DNA of 64,000 nt from the NCBI RefSeq assembly GCF_000515215.1, contig NZ_KI911557.1, forward strand, positions 1,073,486 through 1,137,485, given 5' to 3'. The stretch is from Methylomonas sp. 11b (GTDB taxonomy: Bacteria; Pseudomonadota; Gammaproteobacteria; Methylococcales; Methylomonadaceae). The notes below the pieces were generated by a model. The model made no database searches. It saw only the letters and a program-made list of their open reading frames with translations, and had not been told where the DNA came from. The first letter of the stretch is position 1. Each line of letters starts with the position of its first letter. Positions 43,847-60,549 of this stretch are shown piece by piece. A program made the translations under genes and the position numbers.

Positions 43847-43874
43847 GGCGAAACTCTCCGGTTGTTAAAAAATA

Positions 43875-45631: not shown

Positions 45632-46534
45632 TCAGTTGGACAACTGCTGTTGCTGAGCTTTGGCGTTGAAATGATCTATATCGGTGATCAATTCGCAGTT
45701 GCTCAAATCGTTTTGCAATTGCGCATAGTAAAAATAAGCCCCACTGCCGCCCAGCCATACCTTGGTAGCCTCGCTGTTGACCGAGTCTATTATCAGCTGT
45801 AATTCATCGAGGGTTACTTGCTCCGGCGGAGTCTTTACCAATCCCATGACGATCACGTCCGGCTTCAAGTGCTGGCAGGCCTCGATAATATCCTTGGCCG
45901 GCAAGTCCGCACCCAAATAATAGCAGTTGTAGCCCTGATTGGCAGCGATCAAGCAGCTCACCAAAATCCCGAATTCATGCGGATCGCCGCTAGGCGTCGC
46001 AAACAGCATGCCCGGATTATTTTTAGAGTGATGATGCAAATTGTTCACCATGCTCAACACAATCCGTTTGATGCAACTGGAAAACATGTGCTCCTGGGCG
46101 ATGTTCAATTTTCCGTCATGCCAAAGTTCGCCCACTGTTTGCAAGGCCGGCAACAAAATGTCTCTGGCGTAGTCCAATGGCTCGGCAGCGATCAGAGCCT
46201 TCTTCAACAACTGCTCGCAACGTTCGATTCGGTAGTGTTTCAACGACTCGATGATCTGCGCCAACAGCGGCGATTGCTCTTCTGACGGTTGAACACTGAC
46301 TTGTTTCTGAAAATCTTGTAGCTGCTGGTTGTCTAGGGTAGCCAGCTTGCCGATGGGATGGCCCTTTCGGGTCAGATTGACCAACAGCGTCAATTTTTCC
46401 AAATCCTGTTGAGAATAGAAACGCCGCCCGGTGCTGTTCCGCGCCGGCATGATGCAGGCGTAGCGACGTTCCCAGGCTCTTAGTGTTTCCGCTGTTAATC
46501 CGGTTAAGGAGGTAATCGCTTTAATTGAGTACAT
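45632..46534 (-). CDS. CarH/LitR-type MerR regulator with B12-binding domain
   Basis: 300-aa light-sensing repressor candidate. N-terminal MerR helix-turn-helix (TGLTAETLRAWERRYACIMP), helical bundle, then a cobalamin-binding Rossmann domain. The adenosylcobalamin-pocket signature Wx9EH is intact (W138, E148, H149) and so is DxHxxG (D184, H186, G189) carrying the lower axial His. In CarH, light breaks the Co-C bond of adenosylcobalamin, the tetramer dissociates and the operator is freed. Divergent from a sigma factor gene; light-related genes follow, so this is the likely master photoreceptor of the region. No carotenoid genes are nearby. Confidence 0.9.
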   Translation of the reverse strand: MYSIKAITSLTGLTAETLRAWERRYACIMPARNSTGRRFYSQQDLEKLTLLVNLTRKGHPIGKLATLDNQQLQDFQKQVSVQPSEEQSPLLAQIIESLKHYRIERCEQLLKKALIAAEPLDYARDILLPALQTVGELWHDGKLNIAQEHMFSSCIKRIVLSMVNNLHHHSKNNPGMLFATPSGDPHEFGILVSCLIAANQGYNCYYLGADLPAKDIIEACQHLKPDVIVMGLVKTPPEQVTLDELQLIIDSVNSEATKVWLGGSGAYFYYAQLQNDLSNCELITDIDHFNAKAQQQQLSN

Positions 46535-46546
46535 TGTTCAACTTTT

Positions 46547-46559
46547 GTATAGAAAATAC
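46547..46559. promoter_or_regulatory. Inverted repeat GTAT-N5-ATAC next to the carH start
   Basis: GTAT (46547-46550) and ATAC (46556-46559) lie between the carH start and the sigma gene -35 box, in the context TTTTGTATAGAAAATAC. Short MerR-like symmetry; a possible autoregulatory CarH site. Confidence 0.35.
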
Positions 46560-46560
46560 T

Positions 46561-46598
46561 TTGACAAACATTCTACATTCTAGTAAGTTATTTGCCAA
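46561..46598. promoter_or_regulatory. Interlocked divergent promoters of carH and sigma factor
   Basis: Plus strand: TTGACA (46561-46566), 17 bases, TAAGTT (46584-46589), for the sigma gene. Minus strand: TTGGCA (46593-46598), 17 bases, TAGAAT (46570-46575), for carH. The two promoters overlap almost completely, so polymerase can occupy only one, and a CarH tetramer bound here would block both. Confidence 0.6.
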
Positions 46599-46625
46599 CA
46601 ACTTAAATAACCAAGTGAATTGATT

Positions 46626-47885
46626 ATGTCCAACTTAGCCACATTGCCAATCGATAGCGAGATGGATTCGGTAACAGAATCCCAACCCAACTCACTTGCC
46701 GTTCAAGTTGAACAGGCCAGGCAGACTCTGTTAGCGTTATTGCTGGAAAACAAGCAGACCAACGCTTTGATAATCAACAGATTTTTGCACGACCTCAATT
46801 CAGGCGTGGACTGCTCGGATCTGATCGTCGCCAAGAACTCTGAAGACTATAAAAGACTGCTGCAATTATTGGTCAACAGCCAGGCGGCAAATAAAAACAA
46901 TCCAGTCCTTTATGTCGAGAATAACGGACAGGACAAAGTTGTACAAGCCGAGAATGTTGTACAACTTATGGGTTCGGAATTCGCGCAACAATCCTTGGTG
47001 GCTCGTTCGGTCAATCGGTTGTTGTACAGCCTGCACTTGTTACCGGTATTTTTGATGGACAGTGCGGCCCAAGCTGACGGCGTATTGACCGCCGAAACCG
47101 AAGACAGCGCAGATTTCAAAAAACGCCTGGGCAAAGCCAAACGGGAATTGAGACGCCTGCGCCAGGAAATGATCTCGGCTAACACTGGCCTGGTGGCGTT
47201 TGTCGCTCATAAGTACAAAACCAGTAACCTGAGCTTTGAAGATTTGATGCAGGAAGGTTTGGTAGGACTAATAAAAGCGGTAGACAGATTCGACCCTGAT
47301 CGCGGCATCTGCTTTTCCACTTATGCTATTTACTGGATTAGACAGGCCATATCCCGACTGATAGTCAAACAAGAAAAAATTGTCCGCTTGCCGGTCGCTC
47401 TGGCTGAAAAAGCTGCCACTGTCTTCGAGGCCATGCGCAGTTGCTACCTTAAATATGAGCGTTGGCCGAGCATCGCCGAATTAAAACTTGCTTGCGATTT
47501 GTCCGAGCAAGAAATCAAAACCATCAGCAGTTACTATCAAGCCACCCATTCTTTGGATGCGGCTATAGGTGATGATGACGATAACCTGGAATTGATGGCA
47601 AAAATGCAGCAGCATCAATTCAGTCTGCCACTCGATGAACTAATTGATCAGGATCTGGCTCAATATGTCGACAAAGCAGTTGCTTCGCTACCGGAAAAAC
47701 AGGCGGCGATTTTAACCATGCGTTTCGGTCTGCGCGATCATACGGAAATGACCTTGCAGGCAGTAGCGGATCAGCTGCATGTTACTCGGGAGAGAGTCAG
47801 GCAAATTCAAAATGAAGCATTAAAAAAACTGAAACAACAATTTGGCTTTGACCTTATGCTATTTCTCGAACCCAAGGATGGCTAA
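46626..47885 (+). CDS. Sigma-70 family factor, group 2-like
   Basis: 419-aa sigma factor. A poorly conserved N-terminus (about 180 residues) leads to region 2 (GLVAFVAHKYKTSNLSFEDL, MQEGLVGLIKAVDRFDP, FSTYAIYWIRQAISR), region 3 and region 4 ending with TLQAVADQLHVTRERVRQIQ. Full-length domains 2-4 put it with RpoD-related alternative sigma factors rather than ECF. Divergent from the CarH gene; by analogy with light-controlled sigma factors in carotenoid systems, derepression in light would turn on this sigma and its regulon. ATG 46626 is preferred over TTG 46620. Confidence 0.9.
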   Translation: MSNLATLPIDSEMDSVTESQPNSLAVQVEQARQTLLALLLENKQTNALIINRFLHDLNSGVDCSDLIVAKNSEDYKRLLQLLVNSQAANKNNPVLYVENNGQDKVVQAENVVQLMGSEFAQQSLVARSVNRLLYSLHLLPVFLMDSAAQADGVLTAETEDSADFKKRLGKAKRELRRLRQEMISANTGLVAFVAHKYKTSNLSFEDLMQEGLVGLIKAVDRFDPDRGICFSTYAIYWIRQAISRLIVKQEKIVRLPVALAEKAATVFEAMRSCYLKYERWPSIAELKLACDLSEQEIKTISSYYQATHSLDAAIGDDDDNLELMAKMQQHQFSLPLDELIDQDLAQYVDKAVASLPEKQAAILTMRFGLRDHTEMTLQAVADQLHVTRERVRQIQNEALKKLKQQFGFDLMLFLEPKDG

Positions 47886-47935
47886 CAATAACAATCATTG
47901 ACCCAGGTCAGGCTAACACTACAAGAGGAGTGATT

Positions 47936-49099
47936 ATGTCATCAGAAAAACAAAACACCAGTAAGCAAACGCCGCAGTCCGACTGGAAGTTGGAATTGGA
48001 TAAGCAGTGGAAGCAAGTCTCTACTAAAGCGGGCGACTTCTTTAACGATCACAAGAGTATGTTTACGTTAACCAATATCGCCGCTGCAGTGGGCGGCACC
48101 TTGACCGTCGTCTGGCTGGCCAGCGGGGTTTATATAGTGGACCAGGGTAATCGCGGGGTGGTAAGTCGCTTCGGCGCATATTCCGAGACCACCTTGCCGG
48201 GTCCGCATTGGCACATTCCGGCGCCTATCGAAAGCGTCGCCAACGTTAACGTAGAACAACAACGCTTTATCGAAGTTGGCTATACCGATTCCAGCCGGGT
48301 TAACAAATCAGCTGTTATTCCGCAAGAATCATTGATGCTGACCAGTGACGAAAACATTATTACCGTGCGCCTGGCCGTGCAGTATCAAATTAATAACGCA
48401 CGCGACTACTTATTTAATGTCAAAAACAACGAAAACACGCTGAAGCAACTGACTGAAAGCGTGGAACGCGCGGTAATCGGTCGCAACAACATGGACTTCG
48501 TGTTGACAGAAGGTCGCAGCCAAATCGTTGCCGAGATTAAAGAACAGATTCAGGAGGCGATGGACGGCTACAAAGCCGGTATCAGCATCGCTAGCGTCAA
48601 CCTACAAGACGCGCAGCCGCCCGAGGAAGTGCAAGGTGCGTTCGAGGATGCGATTCGGGCCAGAGAAGACAAGCAGCGTTTGATTAACGAAGCCGAAGCC
48701 TACAGTAATGAAGTGATCCCCAAAGCGCGCGGCGCGGCATCGCGGATTATTCAAGAAGCGGAAGCCTACGAAGCAGAAAAAGTGGCAAAAGCTAAAGGCG
48801 AAACCGAACGCTTCGACCAATTATTGGTGGAATACGAAAAAAGCCCTGCCATCACTCGTAAACGTTTGTATCTGGAAGCCAAGGAAAAACTGTACAGCAG
48901 CACCAACAAGATCATGCTGAACGATGATCAATCCAGCCCGATGATGTACATGCCTTTGCCGCAAACCGTAACGCAACATGCACAGCCAGCCGCCAGCCAT
49001 ACGGAACCGGAACTAAGCTCCGAACCGCATAACGGCGACAAAAACGGCGCTCGCAAATCCACCGGCAACGAATTACGTCCTAGCAGGAGCAAACAATGA
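47936..49099 (+). CDS. hflK: HflK-like FtsH modulator
   Basis: 387-aa SPFH/band-7 membrane protein. One N-terminal helix (FTLTNIAAAVGGTLTVVWLA) then the HflK core: QGNRGVVSRFGAYSETTLPGPHWHIPAPIE, AVQYQINNARDYLFNV, NLQDAQPPEEVQGAFEDA and a coiled coil. HflK and HflC form a periplasmic cage around FtsH hexamers and restrain its proteolysis. It starts 50 bases after the sigma gene with AGAGGAG, and overlaps hflC by four bases. A second copy next to ftsH, not with hflX/purA as in the housekeeping locus, indicates an accessory complex. Confidence 0.9.
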   Translation: MSSEKQNTSKQTPQSDWKLELDKQWKQVSTKAGDFFNDHKSMFTLTNIAAAVGGTLTVVWLASGVYIVDQGNRGVVSRFGAYSETTLPGPHWHIPAPIESVANVNVEQQRFIEVGYTDSSRVNKSAVIPQESLMLTSDENIITVRLAVQYQINNARDYLFNVKNNENTLKQLTESVERAVIGRNNMDFVLTEGRSQIVAEIKEQIQEAMDGYKAGISIASVNLQDAQPPEEVQGAFEDAIRAREDKQRLINEAEAYSNEVIPKARGAASRIIQEAEAYEAEKVAKAKGETERFDQLLVEYEKSPAITRKRLYLEAKEKLYSSTNKIMLNDDQSSPMMYMPLPQTVTQHAQPAASHTEPELSSEPHNGDKNGARKSTGNELRPSRSKQ

Positions 49100-49962
49100 G
49101 CAGCAAAACCACCCAAGTTTTAATTCCGGCCGGTTTGACTCTGTGCGTACTGGCCTATATGTCGGTTTTTTACGTCAAAGAAAACGAAAAAGCCATTCTG
49201 TTTCGTCTCGGTGAGATGGTCACATCCGACTACACTCCCGGGCTACATTTTAAGACCCCTATCATCAATAACGTCAGCACATTTGATGCGCGTGTGCTGA
49301 CCTTGGATGCCAAATCCGAGCGTTTTCTTACCTCCGAGAAGAAGAACGTTATTGTTGACTCATTCGTTAAATGGCGAATCGGTGATGTGGGTCTCTTTTA
49401 CACCACGGTCGGCGGCGACGAGTTTCAAGCCAATCTGCGCCTTGATCAAATTATGAAAGATGCGATGCGTAGCGAATTCGGCGTACGAACCATCAAGCAA
49501 TTGATCTCCGAAGACCGCAACGAACTCAGACAAACCTTGCTGGCAAAGTTGTCGCCGACTGCCGAAAAGTTTGGTATCGAGTTAATCGACATTCGCGTCA
49601 AACGCATTGATTTGCCGCCGGAAGTCAGCAGTTCGGTATATCAAAGGATGCGCGCCGAGCGTGAGCGGGTAGCCAGAGAGTTCCGTTCGCAAGGCGCGGA
49701 AAGTGCTGAGCAAATCAGTGCGGAAGCCGATAAGCAAAAACATGTGATAGTGGCCAATGCCCAGCGCGATGCAGAAAGCATTCGTGGTCGCGGCGATGCG
49801 CAATCAGCAGAGATTTACGCGAAAAGCTACGGTAAAAACCCCGAGTTTTATGCGTTCTACCGCAGCTTGCAGGCATACCAAACGTCGTTTGAAAAAACTC
49901 AGGATACTTTGGTGTTAAAACCGAATTCCGACTTTTTCAAATACTTCTCCAGCGAAAAGTAA
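49096..49962 (+). CDS. hflC: HflC-like FtsH modulator
   Basis: 288-aa partner of HflK: a membrane helix (QVLIPAGLTLCVLAYMSVFY), VKENEKAILFRLGEMV, PGLHFKTPIINNV, band-7 domain with IDIRVKRIDLPPEVSSSVYQ and RMRAERERVAREFRSQGAE, then a helical tail. The gene overlaps hflK and stops 17 bases before ftsH, so the three are one operon. Confidence 0.93.
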   Translation: MSSKTTQVLIPAGLTLCVLAYMSVFYVKENEKAILFRLGEMVTSDYTPGLHFKTPIINNVSTFDARVLTLDAKSERFLTSEKKNVIVDSFVKWRIGDVGLFYTTVGGDEFQANLRLDQIMKDAMRSEFGVRTIKQLISEDRNELRQTLLAKLSPTAEKFGIELIDIRVKRIDLPPEVSSSVYQRMRAERERVAREFRSQGAESAEQISAEADKQKHVIVANAQRDAESIRGRGDAQSAEIYAKSYGKNPEFYAFYRSLQAYQTSFEKTQDTLVLKPNSDFFKYFSSEK

Positions 49963-49979
49963 GTTAGGAGACAGCTATC

Positions 49980-51884
49980 ATGAAAAAAATGTTCATTTTT
50001 ATCACCATCCTGCTTGCAGCAGGGTTGGTGGTGTCGGCGGTGATGAATCGCAACATGCCGGAATACGACCCGCATTTTGAAATTTCGTATTCGGACTTTA
50101 TCGAAGATGTGCGTAATAAAGTGGTCACGGAAGTGGTGATCGACGGCAATAACGTCGAAGGGCATCGGCAAAACGGCACGCGTTTCGCGACCTACAATCC
50201 CAACGACTCGCGCATGATCGACGAGTTGCTGGAATATGGCGTGAAAATCAAAGTTGAGAAGCCACAACAGCCCTCCACCCTGATGAATATTCTCATCTCC
50301 TGGGCGCCCACTTTGTTACTGATCATGGTGCTGGTGTATTTCATGCGCAAGCAGGCCGCGATGGGCGGACGCGACGGCCAGATGGGTTTTGGTAAAAGCC
50401 GCGCTAAATTAATGGCTGAAGACCAGATCAAAGTGCGTTTCACCGACGTGGCGGGTGTGGAAGAAGCCAAGGAAGACGTGGTGGAAATGGTCGATTTTCT
50501 GCGAGAACCAGGCAAATACGAAGCTCTTGGCGGCAAAATTCCGCGAGGTGTATTGATGGTGGGTCCTCCGGGTACCGGTAAAACCTTGTTAGCCAGAGCG
50601 ATTGCCGGCGAAGCAGGCGTACCTTTCTTCTCTATCTCGGGTTCGGATTTCGTGGAAATGTTCGTCGGTGTCGGCGCCTCCAGGGTCAGGGACATGTTCG
50701 AACAAGCCAAAAAACGCGCACCCTGCATCATATTTATCGACGAGATCGATGCAGTCGGTCGGCAACGTGGCGGCAGCGGTATCGGCGGAGGCAACGACGA
50801 ACGAGAACAGACACTCAACCAGTTGCTGGTAGAAATGGACGGCTTCAGCGGTAACGAAGGCATCATCGTCATAGCCGCCACCAACCGGGCCGATGTGTTA
50901 GACAAAGCTTTGTTAAGACCTGGCCGTTTCGACAGGCAAGTGCAGGTTGGTTTGCCCGATATCAAAGGCCGCGAACAAATCTTGAAAGTGCATGGCGCGA
51001 AAGTACCGCTGGCTGAAGACGTGAATATCAACGATCTGGCCCGCGGCACACCCGGTTTTTCCGGTGCGGAGTTAGCCAATTTGATCAACGAAGGTGCTTT
51101 GTTCGCTGCCCGCAACAAAAAGCGGGTCGTGACCATGAACGACTTGGATAAAGCGCGCGACAAAATGATTATGGGCGTGGAAAAACGCACCATGGTGATG
51201 ACCAAAGAAGATTTGTTGATGACCGCTTATCACGAAGCCGGACACGCCATCGTCGGCCGCAATGTGCCGGAGCATGATCCTGTCTATAAAGTCAGCATCA
51301 TGCCGCGCGGCGGGGCTTTGGGTATCACCATGTTCTTGCCGGAGCGCGATCAATACAGCGCCTCCAAAGACAAGCTGGAAAGCCAGATTGCCAGTTTGTT
51401 CGGTGGCCGGGTAGCGGAAGCTTTGATCTACGGCAAAAACAAGGTCACCACTGGCGCGTCCAACGACATCATGCGGGCTACGCAATTGGCTAGAAACATG
51501 GTCACAAAATGGGGTTTGTCGGATCGTTTAGGTCCCATGGATTACGGCGACAGCGAAGGCGGCTATATGGGCCCTCAATCCAAGCCAATGTCGGAAAAGA
51601 TGGCACAAACTATCGATGAAGAAGTACGGGCGGTAATCGATGCGAATTACAACCGCGCCGAAACCATCCTGAAAGAAAACATCGAAGTGCTGCACAACAT
51701 GGCGCAAGCCTTAATGGATTGGGAAACCATCGATAAATTTCAGATCGATGAATTACTGCAAGGCAAAAAACTTGCACCACCGGAACCCGAAGTAGAAGAG
51801 CCAAAATCCTTTGAAGAGATTGAAGACTCGATAAACGACGAAACCGGCGGTCACCTGGATCAAGGACAAGTACTGGCGTCCTAA
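49980..51884 (+). CDS. ftsH: FtsH membrane-bound AAA+ zinc protease (accessory copy)
   Basis: 634-aa ATP-dependent protease of the inner membrane. Two N-terminal helices flank a small periplasmic domain, then the AAA+ module (Walker A GPPGTGKT at 195-202, Walker [38 protein letters not shown]) and the M41 protease domain with HEAGH (418-422). It degrades misfolded and damaged membrane proteins. Being in an operon with hflK-hflC after a light-linked sigma factor suggests it removes photodamaged membrane proteins. A housekeeping ftsH is expected elsewhere (usually beside rlmE), not seen here. The gene is followed by a clear terminator. Confidence 0.93.
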
Positions 51885-51900
51885 AAGTCCTCCTCTATGT

Positions 51901-51939
51901 ACCCTCCAAACGCTGTACTCTTGGAGGGTATCTTTTTTT
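51901..51939 (+). terminator. Strong intrinsic terminator after ftsH
   Basis: Stem ACCCTCCAA (51901-51909) / TTGGAGGGT (51921-51929), 11-base loop, then ATC and seven T. Ends the sigma-hflK-hflC-ftsH transcript. Confidence 0.88.
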
Positions 51940-51952
51940 CAGAGGTAGCAAT

Positions 51953-52372
51953 ATGCATACTCAATCGATAACCACAAAAACCATGAATCTACTGCAATTG
52001 TTGTTGCAGATTAATTTTAATGTAGCGGTGATTCTATTATTGATCAGCGGTGCAGCGACGATATTCGGTAATACGCTTTTTTTTGAAGATAGTAGCGATC
52101 TGTACGGTCCATTGGCAAACAATATGCGGTTAATGATGTTTTATTTGTGCTTAATCCAAATCGCAGCTTACAGTTTTTATAAATTAAGTAACAGCCCGGA
52201 AGCATTGGCCGCGTTAGGCGTTTTTCTGCTGTTACTGATCGGCTCGCTCGAATTTTACTGCTCGATTAATCAAATTGAAATCGACGAAAACTACCGGCAA
52301 TTATTTATTTACTCGGGCTTATCGCACCTGCTTTATGGCGGCTGCGCGGCCATGCGGCACCAGGAAAATTAG
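51953..52372 (+). CDS. Small four-helix membrane protein
   Basis: 139-aa protein with four hydrophobic segments (VAVILLLISGAATIFG, MMFYLCLIQIAAYSFY, ALGVFLLLLIGSLEFY, LFIYSGLSHLLYGGCAA), A/T-rich relative to flanking genes. It begins 14 bases after the ftsH terminator, so it may rely on readthrough or on a hidden promoter. Family not recognised. Confidence 0.65.
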   Translation: MHTQSITTKTMNLLQLLLQINFNVAVILLLISGAATIFGNTLFFEDSSDLYGPLANNMRLMMFYLCLIQIAAYSFYKLSNSPEALAALGVFLLLLIGSLEFYCSINQIEIDENYRQLFIYSGLSHLLYGGCAAMRHQEN

Positions 52373-52687
52373 GGATTTTAATTTTTCTGACACAATATAG
52401 ACTAGAATTAGATGCTGAAGTATTTCTCTTTATTATGATAGGCTTTGCTTAGCACAGACCATAAATCAAATTTATATTTTATTTTTAAAGTTCGGTCTAA
52501 TCGACTGTTTAGCTGTAAAGCCATCTCTAAATCAACACCATCGAGGTATACTGCGTAAATACACAAAAAGCCTAACCGCCTGAAAGTGATTTAATTCCAT
52601 AGATCAAAATACAGTTTTATAGGCTTCACGTGTCCAGAAAAATTATAACAACGCCGAGCAGAAAGCTCCGCGAGGGGGAACGATCAA
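52373..52687. promoter_or_regulatory. A/T-rich leader before the photoprotection genes
   Basis: No gene in 315 bases. The stretch is strongly A/T-rich and precedes a run of genes including the LOV protein, so promoters and operators for them are expected here. GTAT...ATAC spaced nine bases (near 52549-52565) loosely recalls the GTAT-N5-ATAC at carH, but the spacing differs. Not enough to call a site. Confidence 0.4.
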
Positions 52688-53173
52688 ATGCACATCAAAT
52701 TTCCGTTTGACTCACACAAGCCCGTTGCCGGGGAGGCATGCATCGACATCGACAAACCAGTTGACGATGTTTTTCATTATGTCGGTGAAAAATTTTTTGA
52801 GAATTATCCAAAATGGGCTGTTGAAGTAGTCGATTTTGAACCTCTCGACGGCAAAGAAGTATTCGTCGGCGCCAAGGCCAAACAAATCCGTAACGATAAC
52901 AACGGCGAAATCGAATCTGTTTTTGAAATCACCGATTATCAACCCAAAAACAAGCTTATCTTTCAAGGATTGACCCAACCTTACAAGCACAGTTATTTTC
53001 TTGAAGTCGTTCAAGAAGACCGGCAACCCACCCGTTTGACGTTTCGATTTGAATTTTTGGAGCTTGAGGTGTTCATGCGACCTTTTGAGAAGTTAATTCG
53101 TTGCGCCATTGAAGACGGTGCGGAAAGCACCGTCGAAAACATTAAGAATTTAATATTAGTAGAATGCAACTAG
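52688..53173 (+). CDS. SRPBCC-domain protein next to the LOV gene
   Basis: 161-aa soluble SRPBCC (START-like) protein. Block EACIDIDKPVDDVFHYVGEK, then FFENYPKWAVEVVDFEPL, IFQGLTQPYKHSYFLEVV and a long C-terminal helix. It would bind a small hydrophobic ligand. GAGGGG lies before the ATG. It is 42 bases from the LOV gene and probably shares its transcript; the role in light response is unknown. Confidence 0.8.
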   Translation: MHIKFPFDSHKPVAGEACIDIDKPVDDVFHYVGEKFFENYPKWAVEVVDFEPLDGKEVFVGAKAKQIRNDNNGEIESVFEITDYQPKNKLIFQGLTQPYKHSYFLEVVQEDRQPTRLTFRFEFLELEVFMRPFEKLIRCAIEDGAESTVENIKNLILVECN

Positions 53174-53215
53174 CATATACAAACTCATAATTATTATAAA
53201 ACCCGGAGTTTAACC

Positions 53216-53671
53216 ATGGCTTTTATTGTTGAAAAAGATAGCGGGCTTATTCCGCAAGTACTTTCCGCTATTTTGGACGAATGCGTAAACGGCGTCACGC
53301 TGGCGGACCCGGACCTTGAAGACGCGCCTATAATATACGCCAATAAAGCATTCGAACGTTTAACCGGATATGCGCATGACGAAATAATCGGTCATAACTG
53401 CCGTTTTTTGCAAGGTGAAGATAGAGAGCAAGAGGCGCGCTTCAAAATTGCTGCTGCCATGAAGAATCACGAATCGGTTGAAGTGACATTAAGAAACTAC
53501 AAAAAAGACGGTACTTTATTTCACAATCGTTTAAAGATAACCCCGTTATTGGATAAAAAGAATCGGGTAATATATTATCTAGGCGTGCAATATGATATTA
53601 CCGAGCAAGTAAGTGCTAACAATGAAATAAAGGAATTAACCAGTCTATTGGATGCGATTCAAGGAAGTTAA
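53216..53671 (+). CDS. Short LOV blue-light photoreceptor
   Basis: 151-aa stand-alone PAS/LOV protein. The flavin adduct motif GHNCRFLQ is complete with Cys62; downstream are DREQEARFKI, the flavin-facing LRNYKKDGTLFHNRLKITPL and YYLGVQYDIT. A C-terminal helix (VSANNEIKELTSLLDAI) would mediate dimerisation. No output domain, as in Pseudomonas short LOV proteins, where such a protein works with a LitR regulator. Expected: FMN-cysteinyl adduct in blue light. Near genes for lipid modification and oxidative repair. Confidence 0.95.
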   Translation: MAFIVEKDSGLIPQVLSAILDECVNGVTLADPDLEDAPIIYANKAFERLTGYAHDEIIGHNCRFLQGEDREQEARFKIAAAMKNHESVEVTLRNYKKDGTLFHNRLKITPLLDKKNRVIYYLGVQYDITEQVSANNEIKELTSLLDAIQGS

Positions 53672-53708
53672 ATTACCGTGCGATAAATATATTTTGTAGA
53701 GGGTCTCC

Positions 53709-54539
53709 ATGAATACAACTGCAAACGCCAACGGCGACGATGGCCTGTTTTTTAACGAAGCCTTATTTGGCCTGGCGATATTGGCTTTCGTGCTGTTGCT
53801 AATCATAGAAAAAACCAAACCTTATCGCCAGTTTTCCACCAAAACTTATAAAGAGTCCTTTGTCACCAATACCACGGCGTTCTTGGTCAATAACTTAATA
53901 TTAACTGCGCTCAGAGCGTCGTCATTATTTCTGGTTGCTCAGCAATTCGCCAGTTACGGCTTGTTAAGCGGCCTGAGTAACGGCCCGGTTAAATGGCTAC
54001 TGGCTTTCGCTTTTTTCGACTTGGCTATTTTTATCTGGCATTACGCCAGCCATAAGTATGAGTATTTGTGGCGATTCCACAAAGTTCACCACAGCGATAA
54101 ATGCTTTAACGTTTCCACCGGTTTTCGCTTCCATGTTTTCGATTTATTCCTAGAAATAATTTATAAATGCGTATTTGTTGTGGTGATTGGCGTGGATGCG
54201 TATTTAGTACTTTCCATCGAAATCATCGAGTTGTTTTTCATATTTTTCCATCACGCCAATATCCGGGTCCCCAACGAAGCAGCTATCTCCCAAATTATTA
54301 TCACCCCTTCCCTGCACCGCACTCACCATTCCACCTTGCGCTCCGAACATGACAGCAACTACGGCATAGTGTTGGCTATTTGGGATCGGATGTTTGGTAC
54401 CCGAAAAGAGCTGGTACCGGCCAATATAGGATTGGATTTGATTGAAGCGGAGAATTTTATTCAACTGTTTTCTCTGGCATTTATTACCGAACGTAAAATC
54501 CGGCAATTAATGGGCTGGATTCCGAAAGGGAAAAAGTAA
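53709..54539 (+). CDS. Fatty acid hydroxylase / sterol desaturase family protein
   Basis: 276-aa integral membrane di-iron enzyme. Several helices and the eight-His signature: HYASHKYEYLWRFHKVHHSD, GFRFH, HHANIRVP, SLHRTHHSTLRSEHDSNYG. Family enzymes hydroxylate or desaturate lipids. It may remodel membrane lipids under light or oxidative stress, which is inference from the neighbours. Substrate unknown. Confidence 0.88.
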   Translation: MNTTANANGDDGLFFNEALFGLAILAFVLLLIIEKTKPYRQFSTKTYKESFVTNTTAFLVNNLILTALRASSLFLVAQQFASYGLLSGLSNGPVKWLLAFAFFDLAIFIWHYASHKYEYLWRFHKVHHSDKCFNVSTGFRFHVFDLFLEIIYKCVFVVVIGVDAYLVLSIEIIELFFIFFHHANIRVPNEAAISQIIITPSLHRTHHSTLRSEHDSNYGIVLAIWDRMFGTRKELVPANIGLDLIEAENFIQLFSLAFITERKIRQLMGWIPKGKK

Positions 54540-54578
54540 TTAATGGAACTTCTTTGATAAGTTACCGGTAATCAAGCC

Positions 54579-55535
54579 ATGATTATAAAAACAATAAAAA
54601 CTATTCCCGGCAGTGAAATTACCGATCCCTTGGTTTTTCAGCAACGCCGCACTCTGATCAAAGCGATGGCGGCGATGATGCTGACCGGCACCAGCATCCG
54701 CACCGGCTTGGCCGACACCTCAAAACCGATAGGGAGCTCCGTGCCCAAAAGCCCATTCTCGGCGCATGAGTTAGCAGTTACGCCGGCGGACGCCACAAAA
54801 AATTACAATAACTATTATGAATTTGCCTTCAACAAAGAAGACCCCAGCAGCCTGGCCCAAATCCTGCGCGTAGATCCCTGGTCTGTCGAGATCGGCGGCG
54901 AAGTGGAAAAACCCGGCACATATCAGTTGGAAGATATTCTGAGCAGACATACGCTACAGGAATATATCTATCGTTTCCGGTGCGTCGAAGCCTGGTCCAT
55001 GGTAGTGCCCTGGGTAGGCTTTTCGCTGGGCGATTTACTGAAAACCGCAAAACCTCTATCAAGCGCCAAGTTCGTAAAACTCACTTCGGTTCATCAGCCT
55101 GACAGCATGCCCAAGCAACGCAATAACGCGATGCTGGAATGGCCTTATGTCGAGGGTCTGCGTATAGACGAAGCCATGCACCCATTGACCATACTGGCAA
55201 CCGGTATGTATGGCGACATTTTGCCCAAGCAAAACGGCGCGCCGCTGCGTTTGGTAGTGCCCTGGAAATACGGCTTTAAAAGCATCAAGGCCGTCGTCAA
55301 AATAGAACTACTGAAAAGGCCGCCGATTAGCAGTTGGAACAAGTTTGCGCCCAACGAATACGGCTTTTACGCCAACGTCAATCCGGACGTGCCGCATCCG
55401 CGCTGGAGCCAAAATAGCGAGCGGCTATTGGGCAGCGGCTTTTTTACCCCCCGCCGACAAACCGAACTATTTAACGGGTATGGCGAACAGGTCGCTCACC
55501 TGTATCGTGATATGGATTTGAGGCATTTTTTCTAA
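54579..55535 (+). CDS. msrP: Periplasmic methionine sulfoxide reductase catalytic subunit
   Basis: 318-aa molybdopterin enzyme that repairs oxidised methionines in periplasmic proteins. The N-terminus has a twin-arginine signal (QQRRTLIKAMAAMML). The Mo ligand is Cys135 in RFRCVEAWSMVVPW, and SVEIGGEVEKPG and VPWKYGFKSIKA are typical. Starts the pair with msrQ, overlapping by one base. Suits photo-oxidative stress, since singlet oxygen oxidises methionine. Confidence 0.95.
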   Translation: MIIKTIKTIPGSEITDPLVFQQRRTLIKAMAAMMLTGTSIRTGLADTSKPIGSSVPKSPFSAHELAVTPADATKNYNNYYEFAFNKEDPSSLAQILRVDPWSVEIGGEVEKPGTYQLEDILSRHTLQEYIYRFRCVEAWSMVVPWVGFSLGDLLKTAKPLSSAKFVKLTSVHQPDSMPKQRNNAMLEWPYVEGLRIDEAMHPLTILATGMYGDILPKQNGAPLRLVVPWKYGFKSIKAVVKIELLKRPPISSWNKFAPNEYGFYANVNPDVPHPRWSQNSERLLGSGFFTPRRQTELFNGYGEQVAHLYRDMDLRHFF

Positions 55536-56176
55536 TGATTATGCAAATTAATAATTTGCGGTCTTTAACCATCGCGGTGTGTTTTATCCCGCTGCTTTGG
55601 GTCGTTTTCGATATTGCCTTCGATAATCTGGGCTCAAATGAAATGCAAGCCCTACATATTCGTTTAGGTGACTGGGCCTTGCGGTTTTTATGGATAACCT
55701 TGGCTATTACTCCCGTACAAACCGTCACGAAATGGCGCGGCATGACCGAGTATCGGCAATTATTCGGTTTATATGCTTTTTTTTACGCCAGCTTGCATGT
55801 CCTGGTTTATTTAGCGGTTGATCAAGTTTTTGCCTGGCGAATCATCGGTATCGATATTCTCGAAAGCTCTTATATCTGGTTTGGCCTGATTGCCTATATT
55901 ATCGTTTTTTCATTGGGCATTACCTCCTCTAAAGCGTCCAAAAAACTCTTGGGCAAGAGCTGGAAAAAACTGCATCGATTTATTTACCTAGCAGCCGGCG
56001 CGGCAATGATTCATTATTTCTGGCAGCTTAAAGGTAATCTCGCCGAGCCATTATTCTATTTACTTCTTATATTTATGCTGTTGGGTTTTCGCGCTGTAAT
56101 TTGGTTTAAAAATAAGCAGTTAAGTCAAATGATGATTCCGAAAGGCCGCGCATCCCCCGATACAGAATCCGATTAA
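55535..56176 (+). CDS. msrQ: MsrQ heme-binding membrane subunit
   Basis: 213-aa membrane b-type cytochrome that supplies electrons to MsrP. Helices include LTIAVCFIPLLWVVFDIA, LFGLYAFFYASLHVLVYLA and WKKLHRFIYLAAGAAMIHYF, with the conserved heme-binding His in ASLHV, LHRFIY and IHYF. TAATG overlap with msrP. Family identity is clear. Confidence 0.95.
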   Translation: MIMQINNLRSLTIAVCFIPLLWVVFDIAFDNLGSNEMQALHIRLGDWALRFLWITLAITPVQTVTKWRGMTEYRQLFGLYAFFYASLHVLVYLAVDQVFAWRIIGIDILESSYIWFGLIAYIIVFSLGITSSKASKKLLGKSWKKLHRFIYLAAGAAMIHYFWQLKGNLAEPLFYLLLIFMLLGFRAVIWFKNKQLSQMMIPKGRASPDTESD

Positions 56177-56236
56177 CCCACCAAGCCCTGAATAGACGGT
56201 AGGGTTTAGTCTTATTAGTTTCTGGAGCAGAATGTC

Positions 56237-57148
56237 ATGAACACGAACTCGATTTTAATTAGCGGCGGCACCGGCTTTCTGGGCAGTGCGCTTACTAAAC
56301 AACTAATCCAAAAAAACTATGCGGTGACGATCCTAAGCCGTAGCGCCGAAAAAGTGTTCGCCACATTCGGCAACAGCGTTCAAGCTGTTAGCTCGATCAC
56401 CGACTTACCGGATGCCGGCAGCTTTAAAGCGGTGGTCAACCTGGCCGGTGCGGGCATTTTCGATCAACGCTGGACCGAGCCACGCAAACAGCTATTGCGC
56501 GATAGCCGCATTAAATTAACCAAACAATTGGTGGCCTGGATAGCATCAGCCACCCAACCCGCACCAGCACTGGTAAGCGGCTCGGCTATCGGCGTTTACG
56601 GCGATCAAGGCGACAAATTCCTCACTGAAAACAGCGCGAGCCTTGCCGATTTCTCCCAACAGTTGTGCGCCGATTGGGAATCCGCAGCCTTAGAAGCGGA
56701 AAAATTCGGCAGCCGGGTCTGCCTGATACGCACCGGCTTGGTGCTGGGTGATAATGGTGGCATACTGAAACGCATGTTGTTGCCGTTTCGTTTGGGGTTA
56801 GGCGGCCGTCTGGGGAATGGCAAGCAATGGATGTCCTGGATTCATCTGCACGACTGGCTGGCTATTGTCGAAGCGATGATAGAACAACCGGCAATGCGCG
56901 GCCCATACAACGCCACCGCCCCCGAACCGGTCAACAACCAACAATTCAGTGCCAGCCTGGCCAGCGTGCTTAAGCGGCCGCTGCTAATGCCGATACCGGA
57001 AGCGCCCCTTAAATTATTGCTGGGCGAAATGGCCGCGCTAGTCTTGGGTAGCCAGCGCGTGCTGCCGGAGAGGTTACTGGCGCAAGGCTTTGCATTTAAA
57101 TATTCACAGCTGGATACCGCATTGCGCGATATTTTGCATAAACCCTAG
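56237..57148 (+). CDS. TIGR01777-family NAD(P)-dependent oxidoreductase
   Basis: 303-aa SDR-type epimerase-like protein (YfcH family). Nucleotide-binding ISGGTGFLGSALTKQL at the N-terminus; VNLAGAGIFDQRWTEPRKQ, SGSAIGVYGDQGD; and the C-terminal domain with MSWIHLHDW, GPYNATAPEPV and LGSQRVLPERLLAQGF. YfcH-type genes often occur in LitR/photolyase neighbourhoods, consistent with light-induced expression here. Substrate unknown. Confidence 0.9.
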   Translation: MNTNSILISGGTGFLGSALTKQLIQKNYAVTILSRSAEKVFATFGNSVQAVSSITDLPDAGSFKAVVNLAGAGIFDQRWTEPRKQLLRDSRIKLTKQLVAWIASATQPAPALVSGSAIGVYGDQGDKFLTENSASLADFSQQLCADWESAALEAEKFGSRVCLIRTGLVLGDNGGILKRMLLPFRLGLGGRLGNGKQWMSWIHLHDWLAIVEAMIEQPAMRGPYNATAPEPVNNQQFSASLASVLKRPLLMPIPEAPLKLLLGEMAALVLGSQRVLPERLLAQGFAFKYSQLDTALRDILHKP

Positions 57149-57168
57149 ATTTAAAAACGGGCATCTTT

Positions 57169-57678
57169 ATGTTGATCGACAGTCTTTCCCTGCTATTTGC
57201 CTTTACCTCGTTCGTCACCTGGTACGAAACCCTGTTGATCGCCCTCGCCCTAGGCGTGCTGGTATTTTATCTGACCCCCTCCCCTGCCCAGGAATGGGAA
57301 GAACGCACGCCGGCCACGCTATATTTTTACCTGCAATGGAGTTGGCTAGGTTACCTACGGTTAAAAGACGCGTTCTATCCGTTTTTTATCCTGTATAACG
57401 CCGTACTGTTTTTCATCGACTATCGCATTAACGAAGGCAACTTCACCGTCGCCAGCTGGGTGACTATTCATATCATCATGGCGATGCCGCTGATTTATTG
57501 GACCGGTGCCGTTTGGCGCTGTTCAGACAAGGGGGCCAGCCGAATTTGGGCCGCAGTCGCGCGCATGATGACGGTAGCGGCGTATTTCGATTTGCTACTG
57601 CGTTGGGTGATTTATCAGTATTACCCCAATATCCTGTTTAATTGCCAACAAATGATTATTCATTGGGGCGACTGCTGA
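57169..57678 (+). CDS. Membrane protein between TIGR01777 and photolyase genes
   Basis: 169-aa protein with five hydrophobic segments: LSLLFAFTSFVTWYETL, LIALALGVLVFYL, FFILYNAVLFFIDYRI, WVTIHIIMAMPLIYWTG and a C-terminal one. It ends four bases before the photolyase start, so it is in the same transcript. I do not recognise the family. Confidence 0.7.
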   Translation: MLIDSLSLLFAFTSFVTWYETLLIALALGVLVFYLTPSPAQEWEERTPATLYFYLQWSWLGYLRLKDAFYPFFILYNAVLFFIDYRINEGNFTVASWVTIHIIMAMPLIYWTGAVWRCSDKGASRIWAAVARMMTVAAYFDLLLRWVIYQYYPNILFNCQQMIIHWGDC

Positions 57679-57682
57679 GCCG

Positions 57683-59074
57683 ATGGCAAAAAAACGCTAC
57701 AAAACCTCGCTGTTTATTTTCCGCCGCGATTTACGGCTGGAAGATAACACCGCACTCAACGCCGCCCTAAGCGATTCCGAGCATGTCATCGCCTGTTTTA
57801 TCTTCGATCCTCGGCAAATCGAAACTCATCCTTACCAAAGTACGCCGGGCCTGCAATTCATGCTGGAGTCTCTGAGCGATTTGCAGCAACAATTGCAACA
57901 GCAAGGCGCCCTGCTTTACATTTTCAACGATCAGCCGACGCACCTCCTCGAGCCGTTGAAGCAGGATTTGGGCATCGAAGCGGTATTTGTCAATCGCGAC
58001 TACAGTCCGTTCAGCCGGCAACGGGACAACGAACTGCGCGAACAATGCGAAAAACTGCATTTGGCTTTTCACAGCCAAGCCGATTTGCTGCTGACAGAAC
58101 CGGAGCAAAGTTTAAGAAGCAACGGCAAGCCTTATCAAGTATTCACCGCGTTTCATCGGCAAGCCAGACTCCAGCCGGTATCGCCTCCGCAGCGCTTGGC
58201 ACCGGGTAAACTATCGGCAAAAGCCTATGCCGGCCACAAACCGGAGCTGCTACAGCAACTGCAACAGCCGCACCAAAACGCGCTACCCGGTGGCCGACAC
58301 GCGGCACTGGATCGATTAGCCATCATCGGCAACTGCAAAAACTACCTCGCCGTCCGCGATTTTCCGGCCATGGCCGCTACCAGCCAACTGTCGGCTTATT
58401 TAAAGTTCGGCTGCTGCTCGGTGCGCGAGGCTTTTTCCAGCATCCAAGCCGAACTCGATCCCGACCATCCCTTACTCCGGCAGCTGTGTTGGCGGGATTT
58501 TTTCACCCATATCGGCTTTCATTTTCCGCATGTATTCGGTCACGCCTTTGATAGACGTTACGACGGCTTGCTTTGGCGCAACGGCCAAGAAGACTTTTGG
58601 GCCTGGGCCAACGGCCAAACCGGCTTTCCGATTGTGGACGCGGCCATGCGCGAATTGAACCAAACCGGCTGGATGCATAACCGCTTGCGGATGATCGTTG
58701 CCTCGTTTTTGGTCAAGGATTTACACGTCTCCTGGCGCTGGGGCGAACGTTATTTTGCCCAACGTCTGTTAGATTACGACCCTTGCGTCAATAACGGCAA
58801 CTGGCAATGGGCCGCCTCGACCGGCTGTGACGCGCAACCGTATTTCCGGATCTTCAATCCCTGGCTACAGCAGAAAAAATTTGATCCGCAATGCCTGTAT
58901 ATCAAGACTTGGATTCCGGAGTTACAACGCTTCCCGGCAGAAGTCATTCACAAATGGGATAAGCATCCGCAAGCCGGCGACTACCCTCGGCCAAGGGTTG
59001 ACCACGCCGTACAAAGCCAGCTGATCAAAGCCCAATTCAAAGCCCTGGGCAATACCACGGCTACCGCGGAGTAA
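57683..59074 (+). CDS. phrB: CPD DNA photolyase
   Basis: 463-aa class I photolyase. The N-terminal antenna-binding domain begins SLFIFRRDLRLEDNTAL; the FAD domain includes LSAYLKFGCCSVREAF, FPIVDAAMRELNQTGWMHNR, WRWGERYFAQRLLDYDPCVN, NGNWQWAASTGCDAQPYFRI, with the tryptophans of the electron-transfer chain. Uses blue light to split cyclobutane dimers. Typical LitR/CarH-neighbourhood member. Downstream genes follow within three bases and a short gap, so the lipocalin and YbgA genes share its transcript. Confidence 0.96.
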   Translation: MAKKRYKTSLFIFRRDLRLEDNTALNAALSDSEHVIACFIFDPRQIETHPYQSTPGLQFMLESLSDLQQQLQQQGALLYIFNDQPTHLLEPLKQDLGIEAVFVNRDYSPFSRQRDNELREQCEKLHLAFHSQADLLLTEPEQSLRSNGKPYQVFTAFHRQARLQPVSPPQRLAPGKLSAKAYAGHKPELLQQLQQPHQNALPGGRHAALDRLAIIGNCKNYLAVRDFPAMAATSQLSAYLKFGCCSVREAFSSIQAELDPDHPLLRQLCWRDFFTHIGFHFPHVFGHAFDRRYDGLLWRNGQEDFWAWANGQTGFPIVDAAMRELNQTGWMHNRLRMIVASFLVKDLHVSWRWGERYFAQRLLDYDPCVNNGNWQWAASTGCDAQPYFRIFNPWLQQKKFDPQCLYIKTWIPELQRFPAEVIHKWDKHPQAGDYPRPRVDHAVQSQLIKAQFKALGNTTATAE

Positions 59075-59077
59075 ACC

Positions 59078-59596
59078 ATGCGTTATGTATCGATAGTCTT
59101 ATTAAGCCTGCTATGCGCCTGCACCGGCATTCCGGACGGCGTAAAAGTCATAGACGGCTTCGAGCTGGAACGCTATCTGGGCACCTGGTACGAAATCGCC
59201 CGCCTGGATCACAGCTTCGAGCGCGGCCTGACCGACATTAGCGCCGAATATAGCCTGCGTGATGACGGCGGCGTGAAGGTGTTAAACAGCGGCTACGACG
59301 CCGAGCAAGGCCAACGAAAAATCGCCGAAGGTAAAGCTTACTTTATCGACAAACCGGACATAGGCCGCCTGAAAGTATCTTTCTTTGGGCCGTTTTACGG
59401 CGCCTATAACATCATTGCGCTAGATAAAACCGGCTACCGGTATGTGATGATCGCCGGCCCGGATCGCGATTATTTATGGATACTGGCCCGCAGCCCGGAA
59501 TTGCCACCGAGCATCCTCCAAGAGCTGATTCAGCAGGCAAAAGCCCTTGGCTTTGCCACCGAGAAACTGATTTTTGACCAACACCCCAAGCAATAA
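59078..59596 (+). CDS. blc: Lipocalin-family lipoprotein (Blc-like)
   Basis: 172-aa outer-membrane lipocalin. The signal ends in the lipobox LLCAC; ELERYLGTWYEIARLDHSFE is the GxW lipocalin signature; YVMIAGPDRDYLWILARSPE is the second motif. It likely carries lipids for membrane maintenance. Three bases after the photolyase stop; lipocalin-photolyase pairs recur in light-regulated clusters. Confidence 0.93.
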   Translation: MRYVSIVLLSLLCACTGIPDGVKVIDGFELERYLGTWYEIARLDHSFERGLTDISAEYSLRDDGGVKVLNSGYDAEQGQRKIAEGKAYFIDKPDIGRLKVSFFGPFYGAYNIIALDKTGYRYVMIAGPDRDYLWILARSPELPPSILQELIQQAKALGFATEKLIFDQHPKQ

Positions 59597-59607
59597 CAGG
59601 ATTAAGC

Positions 59608-60549
59608 ATGCAGAAAATTTCGGTGGGCATCAGCGCCTGTCTGTTAGGCCAAGAAGTGCGTTACGACGGCGCGCATAAATATCACAGCTATATCGAACGC
59701 ACGCTGGGCCAGTATTTCGAATTTAGAGCCTTCTGTCCGGAAGTCGAAGCCGGCTTGGGTATCCCGCGTCCCTGTGTACAGCTGCGCGAAACCGCCAATG
59801 GCATCCGTTGCGTCGGCGTTAAGGACCATAGCTTTGACGTAACGGAACGATTGGAACAAGCTTCGGCACGGCAACACGACTGGCTGGGCGGCTTGTGCGG
59901 CTACATCCTTAAAAAGGACTCGCCCAGCTGTGGCATGACCAGGGTTAAAATCTATAAAAACGATATTCCCGCGCGACAAGGTACCGGCATTTTTGCGGAC
60001 TATTTACAGCGCACTTTCCCTAGCCTGCCGGTAGAAGAAGAAGGCCGGCTGGGCGATCCCGGCCTGCGGGAAAACTTTATCCAGCGCGTGTTTGTGATGC
60101 GCCGCTGGCAGGATTTATGCGAACAAGGTTTGTCGGCGCATAGTTTGATCACCTTTCACAGCCGGCATAAATTAATCGCGATGAGTCACGAGCAAAATCA
60201 GGCCCGCGAGCTGGGGCGGATTATTGCCGGCGTCACAAACGCTAATATTGAAAACACCGCCGCCGCCTACATCGCTGCGCTGATGACATGCCTAAAAATC
60301 GTCGCTACCCGCGGCAACCACGTGAATGTCTTGCAACACATCCAGGGTTATTTAAAGCACAAACTGGACAGCGACGACAAACAGGAACTGGTGGAAACCA
60401 TCGAAAACTATCGAATTGGTTTATTGCCGCTGATCGTGCCGCTCACCCTGCTCCGCCATCATTTCCGCAGAGAGCCCGATGACTTTATCGACAACTCTTT
60501 CTACATGCTGCCGCATCCGGCGGAATTGTCATTGTTGAACAGTATTTAA
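59608..60549 (+). CDS. YbgA-like protein (DUF523 plus DUF1722)
   Basis: 313-aa two-domain protein. Residues 1-150 form DUF523: GISACLLGQEVRYDGAHK, FCPEVEAGLGIPRP, CGYILKKDSPSCGM, with Cys residues that could bind a metal. The rest is DUF1722: LITFHSRHKLIAMSH, GNHVNVLQHIQGYLK and PLIVPLTLLRHHF. In E. coli YbgA is next to phr, and here the two genes are near neighbours too. Function not established, but association with DNA photorepair is recurrent. Last gene of the photolyase transcript. Confidence 0.92.
   Translation: MQKISVGISACLLGQEVRYDGAHKYHSYIERTLGQYFEFRAFCPEVEAGLGIPRPCVQLRETANGIRCVGVKDHSFDVTERLEQASARQHDWLGGLCGYILKKDSPSCGMTRVKIYKNDIPARQGTGIFADYLQRTFPSLPVEEEGRLGDPGLRENFIQRVFVMRRWQDLCEQGLSAHSLITFHSRHKLIAMSHEQNQARELGRIIAGVTNANIENTAAAYIAALMTCLKIVATRGNHVNVLQHIQGYLKHKLDSDDKQELVETIENYRIGLLPLIVPLTLLRHHFRREPDDFIDNSFYMLPHPAELSLLNSI

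Follow-up and report, generated by a model that had tools for sequence, protein, structure and literature searches.

Gene content of the cluster

The DNA analysed in this work (hereafter the window) is a 64-kb stretch of Methylomonas sp. 11b, corresponding to positions 1,073,486–1,137,485 of a single 5.41-Mb contig. At 45632–60549 of the window we have found a cluster of 16 genes, in which a gene for a CarH/LitR-like regulator stands divergent to 15 plus-strand genes that begin with a sigma factor gene and the membrane protease genes hflK, hflC and ftsH. The genes are listed below with their profile matches, with protein lengths in amino acids (aa).

45632–46534, minus strand: CarH/LitR-like MerR regulator with two B12-binding domains, 300 aa; PF13411, PF02607 and PF02310 over cut-off
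46626–47885, plus strand: RpoD-like sigma factor, 419 aa; PF04542 and PF04545
47930–49099, plus strand: hflK; TIGR01933, 317 bits (cut-off 159)
49096–49962, plus strand: hflC, overlapping hflK by 4 base pairs (bp); TIGR01932, 299 bits (cut-off 134)
49980–51884, plus strand: ftsH; TIGR01241, 835 bits (cut-off 600)
51953–52372, plus strand: o139, undescribed, 139 aa; no Pfam or NCBIfam match at E<=0.001
52688–53173, plus strand: SRPBCC (polyketide cyclase/lipid transport) protein; PF10604
53216–53671, plus strand: short LOV blue-light receptor, 151 aa, without effector domain; NF052652, 161 bits, below the cut-off of 250
53709–54539, plus strand: fatty-acid-hydroxylase-superfamily protein; PF04116
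54579–55535, plus strand: msrP; NF003767, 442 bits (cut-off 207)
55535–56176, plus strand: msrQ; NF003831, 165 bits (cut-off 130)
56237–57148, plus strand: TIGR01777 oxidoreductase; 355 bits (cut-off 207)
57169–57678, plus strand: o169, unnamed, 169 aa, lying after the TIGR01777 gene and before the photolyase gene; Pfam and NCBIfam gave nothing at E<=0.001
57683–59074, plus strand: DNA photolyase; PF00875 and PF03441 over cut-off, NCBIfam photolyase equivalog cut-offs missed
59078–59596, plus strand: Blc-type lipocalin; PF08212 over cut-off, NF007786 219 bits, below the cut-off of 267
59608–60549, plus strand: RudS-type protein (TudS + DUF1722), predicted tRNA 4-thiouridine desulfidase; PF04463 and PF08349 over cut-off

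A preliminary description made from the sequence alone had regarded this region as a light and photo-oxidative stress island. The genes it named are all present at the above coordinates with the support of the Pfam and NCBIfam searches, and it was right that nearly all of them (15 of 16) are on the plus strand, but it had omitted two genes, at 51953–52372 and 57169–57678. Its YbgA-like gene is also there, and can be refined to a RudS-type gene, in which a TudS domain is fused to DUF1722 (solved relative: TudS, 6z92). As to the word island, it holds for a gene cluster but not for a mobile element: no mobile-element family name occurs among the 16 genes (two of which have no match at E<=0.001) and the gene order is kept across the genus, so that a mobile island was rejected.

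The CarH-like, LOV, hydroxylase, photolyase and lipocalin proteins miss the NCBIfam cut-offs, while the Pfam domains are clear in all five. The LOV protein has the features of a short LOV, i.e., a LOV core with the photoactive Cys and PAS matches only, and the motif G[RH]NCRFLQG is found in 23 of 23 copies, while the cut-off that it misses in NCBIfam is that of the YtvA family; its solved relatives include 3sw1 and 7a6p, which we take to be Pseudomonas short LOVs. A homologue of o169 lies at the same position in Methylomonas loci. Directly before the cluster, on the minus strand at 43313–44684 of the window, there are a second SRPBCC gene and a bestrophin-like gene, which are present in some close relatives as well.

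For the protease, FtsH, HflK and HflC all pass their NCBIfam cut-offs, and the solved relatives of FtsH include 7vhp and others, presumably structures of the E. coli FtsH-HflKC complex. The genome has five FtsH-type M41 genes (G000:C1 592539, 969682, 1124677, 4501350 and 4684263). According to the reading of neighbouring translations, the window ftsH is the sole M41 gene found beside hflKC, while one other is beside rlmE and three are not beside hflKC. The window FtsH shares 64% identity with the rlmE-linked copy, 75–76% with two others and 44% with the fifth, and for HflK and HflC of the window the identity to a pair linked, again by translation reading, to hfq and hflX is 51% and 62%. In the FtsH tree, the two copies of 75–76% identity are placed among the Methylococcales cluster copies, not outside them. 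The FtsH of the cluster therefore does not form a lineage entirely of its own, and the two copies may be derived from it. Apparently, the cluster keeps its own intact hflKC-ftsH set. The genome also has a neighbouring pair of Band-7 (SPFH) genes at G000:C1 4917258–4918804 (L078), in addition to hflKC of the window and the hfq-linked hflKC; they may be stomatin-like, a guess from length only.

The o139 protein was modelled with four long helices (predicted local distance difference test score, pLDDT, of 87), and is probably a membrane protein. Its model had no PDB fold match at E<=0.001 and gave no informative relative, and across 23 relatives the best Pfam value is 0.0031, in one member.

The predicted operator and the two regulators

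For comparison, 35 loci from 34 other Methylococcales genomes (one genome, G205, twice) were fetched around matches to the sigma factor and compared with the window proteins. The gap between the CarH-like and sigma genes, 91 bp, is conserved in this comparison, and in the window it carries the following elements.

46546–46551, plus strand: box TGTAYA upstream, its start 15 bp ahead of the start of the -35 box
46561–46577, plus strand: predicted CarH operator, two TnnACA units 11 bp apart; unit 1 is the -35 box TTGACA (46561–46566) and unit 2 is TCTACA (46572–46577)
46584–46589, plus strand: predicted -10 box TAAGTT after a 17-bp spacer, with three of six consensus positions

In the accessible text of two papers (PMC8156234, PMC9304148), CarH operators consist of 11-bp units, nnnnTnnACAn, repeated in tandem, and the -35 box often falls within one of these units; in the published model, operator-bound CarH blocks the -35 box in the dark, and light destroys adenosyl-B12 (AdoB12), freeing the operator. 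The site found here agrees with this pattern in form only, i.e., as two units in register. The tandem of TTGACA and TnnACA exactly 11 bp apart is present in 31 of the 35 loci (25 of the 29 distinct sequences), while shuffling the same gaps with a first-order Markov model gave any tandem TnnACA pair in only 1.4% of cases. Within the window, TTGACA-N5-TnnACA is unique to the operator on both strands, and there are four looser tandem TnnACA pairs, two per strand, with the operator counted in. The TGTAYA box stands upstream in 31 loci as well, at 15 bp in 30 and at 16 bp in L070, and was not found in L072, L074, L075 and L076. At the level of the 5.41-Mb genome, the pattern TGTAYA-N9-TTGACAAANATTNTACA has a single occurrence with up to 3 mismatches allowed, and TTGACA-N5-TnTACA has three sites, one being the operator. 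The other two were rejected as CarH targets, one being inside a long reading frame and the other in a phage-like-looking stretch (judged from open reading frames). Overall, the sequence supports control of the sigma gene by the CarH-like regulator, as the preliminary description had proposed, in that a tandem 11-bp repeat of CarH type covers the -35 box in front of the sigma gene.

The regulator itself carries W-x9-EH and D/ExHxxG (with the lower axial His) in 35 of 35 CarH copies, and RxWERRY of the MerR DNA-binding domain is found in all 35 too; these motifs bear out its earlier assignment as CarH-like. The PF02310 domain, just over its cut-off in the window copy (33.4 vs 32.1 bits), is present in addition to the four-helix B12 domain, and the protein does not fit class II LitR, which has the four-helix domain only. 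Its best solved relatives, 3whp and 5c8d, are CarH. Considering both B12 domains, the conserved ligand motifs and a corrinoid adenosyltransferase gene present in the genome, the protein most likely binds AdoB12, and B12 sensing by it is likely.

For the sigma factor, we have placed the start at ATG 46626, by our own choice, in a frame that opens at TTG 46620. Residues 159–406 match RpoD/RpoS, with regions 2 and 4 present, while the N-terminal ~155 aa show no sequence match to them; regarding region 1.2, the residue-by-residue RpoD/RpoS matches begin at 164 and 179, and confidence in the model of the N-terminal part is low to middling. The structure model as a whole (mean pLDDT 64, helical N-terminus) matches E. 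coli sigma70 and is too weak to define an N-terminal domain. Since the RpoD/RpoS NCBIfam cut-offs are missed (e.g., 211 vs 555 and 202 vs 379 bits), we call the protein RpoD-like, not RpoD or RpoS. Its closest named relatives are from Methylomonas, at 93–98% identity. In region 4.2, the helix (VTRERVRQI) is almost the same as in RpoD (VTRERIRQI), and the factor likely reads RpoD-like promoters, perhaps its own included.

The best NCBIfam and PADLOC match of this protein is MzaA, which would point to an anti-phage role. This role was rejected, as only the sigma core matches (212 bits vs the NCBIfam cut-off of 800), and no MZA partner appears among the Pfam/NCBIfam names of the neighbours, the PADLOC scan covering three of the 16 proteins. 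Sigma copies distant from any CarH gene have also been observed, at L071 (the second locus of G205) and in G076, G142, G173, G153 and G126.

Conservation in Methylococcales and beyond

In the 35 loci, sigma and ftsH are always present, and CarH is found in 34, hflK in 32 and o139 in 31. Therein o139 is the usual partner of the sigma-ftsH module; it was not found in L050 and L066 (in both, the contig ends inside ftsH), nor in L051 and L071. The locus without CarH, L071, holds a paralogous sigma-hflK-hflC-ftsH in a genome that also holds the full cluster (L048); TTGACA-N5-TnnACA is absent there from the strand of the sigma gene, and a transposase gene is nearby. The unit of sigma and protease thus occurs outside the light cluster as well.

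As for the downstream genes, the SRPBCC-to-RudS stretch is complete in 19 of the 29 loci with the same genus label, and L059 has all but RudS. Four loci of this label are cut by the contig end (L044, L050, L061 and L066), and part or all of the stretch is absent in L051, L067, L070, L071 and L076. In L070 and L076, which are without the LOV-msr block, the TIGR01777 and photolyase genes follow the core, and TIGR01777 also comes after the core under other genus labels, in L072, L073 and L074. No SRPBCC-to-RudS-type cargo was detected in the fetched stretch of L068, L069 and L075. At 8025–8909 of L072, near the position of the Methylomonas LOV gene, a BLUF-PsiE fusion is observed, a possible swap of the blue-light receptor.

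We have further searched 301 Methylococcales genomes, 140 of which have a CarH-like match at E<=1e-15. There are 61 matches above 250 bits in 60 genomes, and 59 of them are divergent and less than 1 kb from a gene for this sigma, a neighbour count that leaves out 81 lower-scoring matches, the 250-bit line having been set after seeing the gap of 254.6 vs 126.1 bits. The 59 loci span eight genus labels and two family labels, and the two exceptions are a second copy in G209 and a copy in G252. Since the order is kept in other Methylomonas genomes and the divergent CarH-sigma pair recurs in nearly all high-scoring CarH loci, the gene order is not due to chance. The 81 lower-scoring matches look like a second, more distant CarH type common in the order, with the copy of G163 ~1.3 kb from another sigma match.

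The GTDB genomes were also scanned with an o139 alignment pattern, which leans on two conserved o139 peptides and misses cores without o139. In the 27 loci obtained, CarH and sigma are both present in 22, two are cut by the contig end (L089 and L092, both with ftsH) and three have neither (L104–L106), while ftsH is upstream of o139 in 24. These loci are named Methylomonas, Methylobacter, Methylotuvimicrobium and Methylomicrobium, plus metagenome-assembled genomes, one of which, labelled Ignavibacteriales (3.6-kb contig), is likely misbinned. The o139 relatives of L104, L105 and L106 lie outside the module, with a lipocalin gene next to that of L106. In some Methylobacter and Methylomicrobium-type loci (L095, L096, L099 and L103), the hflK/hflC or ftsH part is undetected or fragmented, for which masked stretches are a possible cause, and CarH, sigma and o139 are kept. 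By the preliminary description, a gene order limited to this one genome would have refuted its view; actually, the synteny extends beyond this genome, and the core exists in several Methylococcales genera.

Among 274 genomes drawn evenly from the class, CarH is found at E<=1e-20 in 39, two being Methylococcales, and sigma at E<=1e-48, a threshold set after the Methylococcales scan to exclude ordinary RpoD/RpoS, in two, both Methylococcales. Outside the order, 37 of these genomes carry CarH; 28 of their loci were retrieved, together with no more than 1.5 kb on either side, and compared with the window proteins only. Photolyase adjoins CarH in 11 of them, RudS in 4 and LOV in 1, and tblastn gave no match to the window sigma, HflK, HflC and FtsH within ~1.5 kb, a comparison that an ECF-type (extracytoplasmic function) sigma could escape.

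In addition, the pairwise protein distances of CarH correlate with those of sigma (r = 0.94), ftsH (0.87), hflC (0.90) and o139 (0.89) over 26–29 loci, with L071 and near-identical loci dropped, and 0 of 2000 permutations reached these values. This correlation fits joint inheritance, from which plain vertical descent is not separated.

The proposed light-switched operon and known systems

Based on the above analyses, we consider it rather probable that the cluster is a light-switched operon of gammaproteobacterial methanotrophs, controlled by CarH and coding for a sigma factor as well as for the quality control of membrane proteins and the repair of light damage. As long as it is dark, the repressor would sit, probably together with AdoB12, on the tandem 11-bp repeats including the -35 box and block the sigma promoter; we infer this because of the published CarH mechanism and the conserved repeat found here. 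In the light, the bound cofactor would be destroyed and the repressor would leave, and the housekeeping RNA polymerase could then transcribe sigma-hflK-hflC-ftsH-o139, with read-through or internal promoters serving the LOV, MsrPQ, photolyase, lipocalin and RudS genes. As a result, photolyase would repair DNA, MsrPQ would repair oxidised periplasmic methionine, FtsH-HflKC, the lipocalin and the hydroxylase would act in the repair of the membrane and its proteins, and RudS would remove photosensitive 4-thiouridine from tRNA. The sigma factor, because its promoter-reading helix resembles that of RpoD, would probably support its own promoter as a feedback, and also further genes. In this scheme, the light response, the repression, the role of sigma and the read-through as one operon are what we infer.

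Gene content, synteny, the operator-like promoter and the B12-ligand residues are direct observations of this analysis, and several points weigh against the operon built on them. The CarH-like protein reaches 121 bits in the NCBIfam CarH family NF052513, whose cut-off is 400, and departs from the rest of the classic B12 motif, x41-SxT/V-x22-27-GG, as the window copy has GLV and 28 residues before GG; for this reason we use the name CarH-like, not CarH. In the 27 pattern-resolved copies, the Ser position after x41 holds Ser in 4 (L070, L072, L073 and L074), Gly in 22 and Leu in 1, and the remaining 8 of the 35 copies, outside the pattern, all have Gly by eye. At the promoter, two repeats are in register vs three or four in published operators, the TGTAYA box is 15 bp off, not 11 or 22, the tandem pair is absent from L058, L067, L068 and L074, the window -10 box is weak, and the consensus promoter scan did not call the sigma promoter. 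Moreover, hflKC was not detected in L072, L073 and L075 among the 35 loci, and the downstream light genes were not found in L067, which keeps the core, so core and cargo can part. The 35 loci are also related to each other, and the operator and synteny counts are not independent draws.

Whether the sigma factor drives the repair genes directly is the matter on which the operon has a first competitor. Within the cluster, the intergenic gaps have medians of -4 to 68 bp, except the o139-SRPBCC gap, with a median of 168 bp. The consensus scan, blind to the sites of a private sigma, gave about as many promoter-like sites in the region as expected by chance (20 vs 19.7), and the terminator scan gave 31 vs 21.7 expected, with none on the plus strand in the o139-SRPBCC gap. 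In a strict cascade, CarH would control sigma alone, and sigma would read separate promoters before SRPBCC, LOV, msrP and photolyase. This would suit the long CarH-type site being single in the genome and the other two TTGACA-N5-TnTACA sites not being before light genes, and the o139-SRPBCC gap, 315 bp here and up to 1046 bp elsewhere, could house a promoter. On the other hand, this gap is below 100 bp in 6 of 20 loci and the other gaps are operon-like, the promoter-like sites stay at chance level, and with a region 4.2 helix so near to that of RpoD a private promoter class is not evident. We regard the cascade as rather doubtful and prefer one CarH-controlled unit, perhaps with an internal promoter, in which the repair genes may be read from the same promoter as sigma.

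A different question is which protein senses the light. In Pseudomonas mendocina, PmSB-LOV acts by binding the class II LitR PmlR2 (PMC9758184, in its accessible text), and by analogy the LOV protein here could be a second or even the main light input, a role that the preliminary description had left aside. As the real light sensor, it would bind the CarH-like repressor in the same way, with B12 being structural or having no part, and besides this precedent, the photoactive-Cys motif in all 23 short LOV copies of the same cluster and the imperfect B12 motif of the CarH-like protein speak for it. However, both B12 domains of the window copy pass the Pfam cut-offs, every CarH copy retains the ligand motifs, also where no such LOV was found in the fetched stretch (L070, L072–L074 and L076), and class II LitRs are described in the same accessible text with the four-helix domain only. 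A class II LitR or LOV-only explanation is weakened by these retained domains and motifs, and we hold it to be unlikely. It is also conceivable, though quite improbable in our judgement, that the cluster is a general membrane or oxidative stress unit, whose CarH would respond to redox or to B12 status, with light playing an incidental part. The sigma-protease unit of L071 without CarH means that this pair is not tied to light, and in the accessible text of PMC5241685 the Vibrio cholerae MerR is reported to act with reactive oxygen species, but photolyase, LOV or BLUF, RudS and TIGR01777 genes recur beside the CarH-bearing copies, and gammaproteobacterial CarH homologues outside the order adjoin photolyase and RudS.

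Overall, the conserved cluster suggests that the non-photosynthetic Methylomonas group turns on a light-repair programme of its own, and in several genera of such bacteria it links a predicted light sensor with a membrane AAA protease and a sigma factor. In photosynthetic membranes, FtsH clears photo-damaged membrane proteins. Here it is tentatively possible that a B12 photoreceptor switches an RpoD-like sigma and a dedicated FtsH-HflKC, with o139 as a new membrane subunit, for clearing photo-damaged membrane proteins, plausibly those of methane-oxidising membranes. The light response of methane oxidisers is relevant to lake methane emission, and if light truly induces the cluster, it would offer a genetic handle on their light tolerance, with o139 as a candidate new accessory protein of FtsH. 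The first step can be tested directly, since the operator-like sequence is known.

The preliminary description had considered the addition of FtsH-HflKC to be new or rarely noted. This agrees with the literature searched, from which subscription journals are mostly missing: none of the papers listed has CarH/LitR, FtsH and a sigma factor together as its subject, none joins Methylomonas, photolyase, light and methane oxidation, and in the papers found for CarH together with methanotroph there is only a single mention of either word. FtsH with its modulators HflK and HflC is a known protease, and all three proteins pass the family cut-offs here; different is that the cluster holds an additional set, with the hfq-hflX-linked hflKC and the rlmE-linked ftsH elsewhere. 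In Streptomyces coelicolor, a 2005 study reportedly described a light-induced ECF sigma factor beside a LitR-type regulator, for carotenoids; this light response via sigma is similar to our case, whereas the sigma there is of ECF type and here it is RpoD-like and joined to a membrane protease.

The CarH/LitR regulons of Thermus, Bacillus megaterium and Myxococcus (class I LitR) share with this cluster the MerR-B12 repressor and the tandem TnnACA repeats enclosing the -35 box, while their targets, in the accessible text, are mainly carotenoid genes, unlike the RpoD-like sigma, hflKC-ftsH and imperfect B12 motif here (PMC8156234, PMC9304148). The Pseudomonas PmlR2/PmSB-LOV system likewise has a LitR-family repressor, a short LOV and photolyase among its genes, but the accessible text mentions no sigma or FtsH-HflKC, and its LitR has one B12 domain where ours has two (PMC9758184). 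In Vibrio cholerae, a MerR protein and a sigma factor also act in a blue-light response with photolyase, though there SigmaE is held by the anti-sigma ChrR, and FtsH is unmentioned in the accessible main text (PMC5241685). RudS genes, i.e., TudS-DUF1722, are described beside photolyase and LitR in light-responsive operons, in an accessible text that describes no link to a sigma factor or FtsH (PMC11417400). As a kind of system, the light-switched photo-oxidative regulon is known, and what is new is its coupling to an RpoD-like sigma and FtsH-HflKC, in a conserved module seen so far only in Methylococcales.

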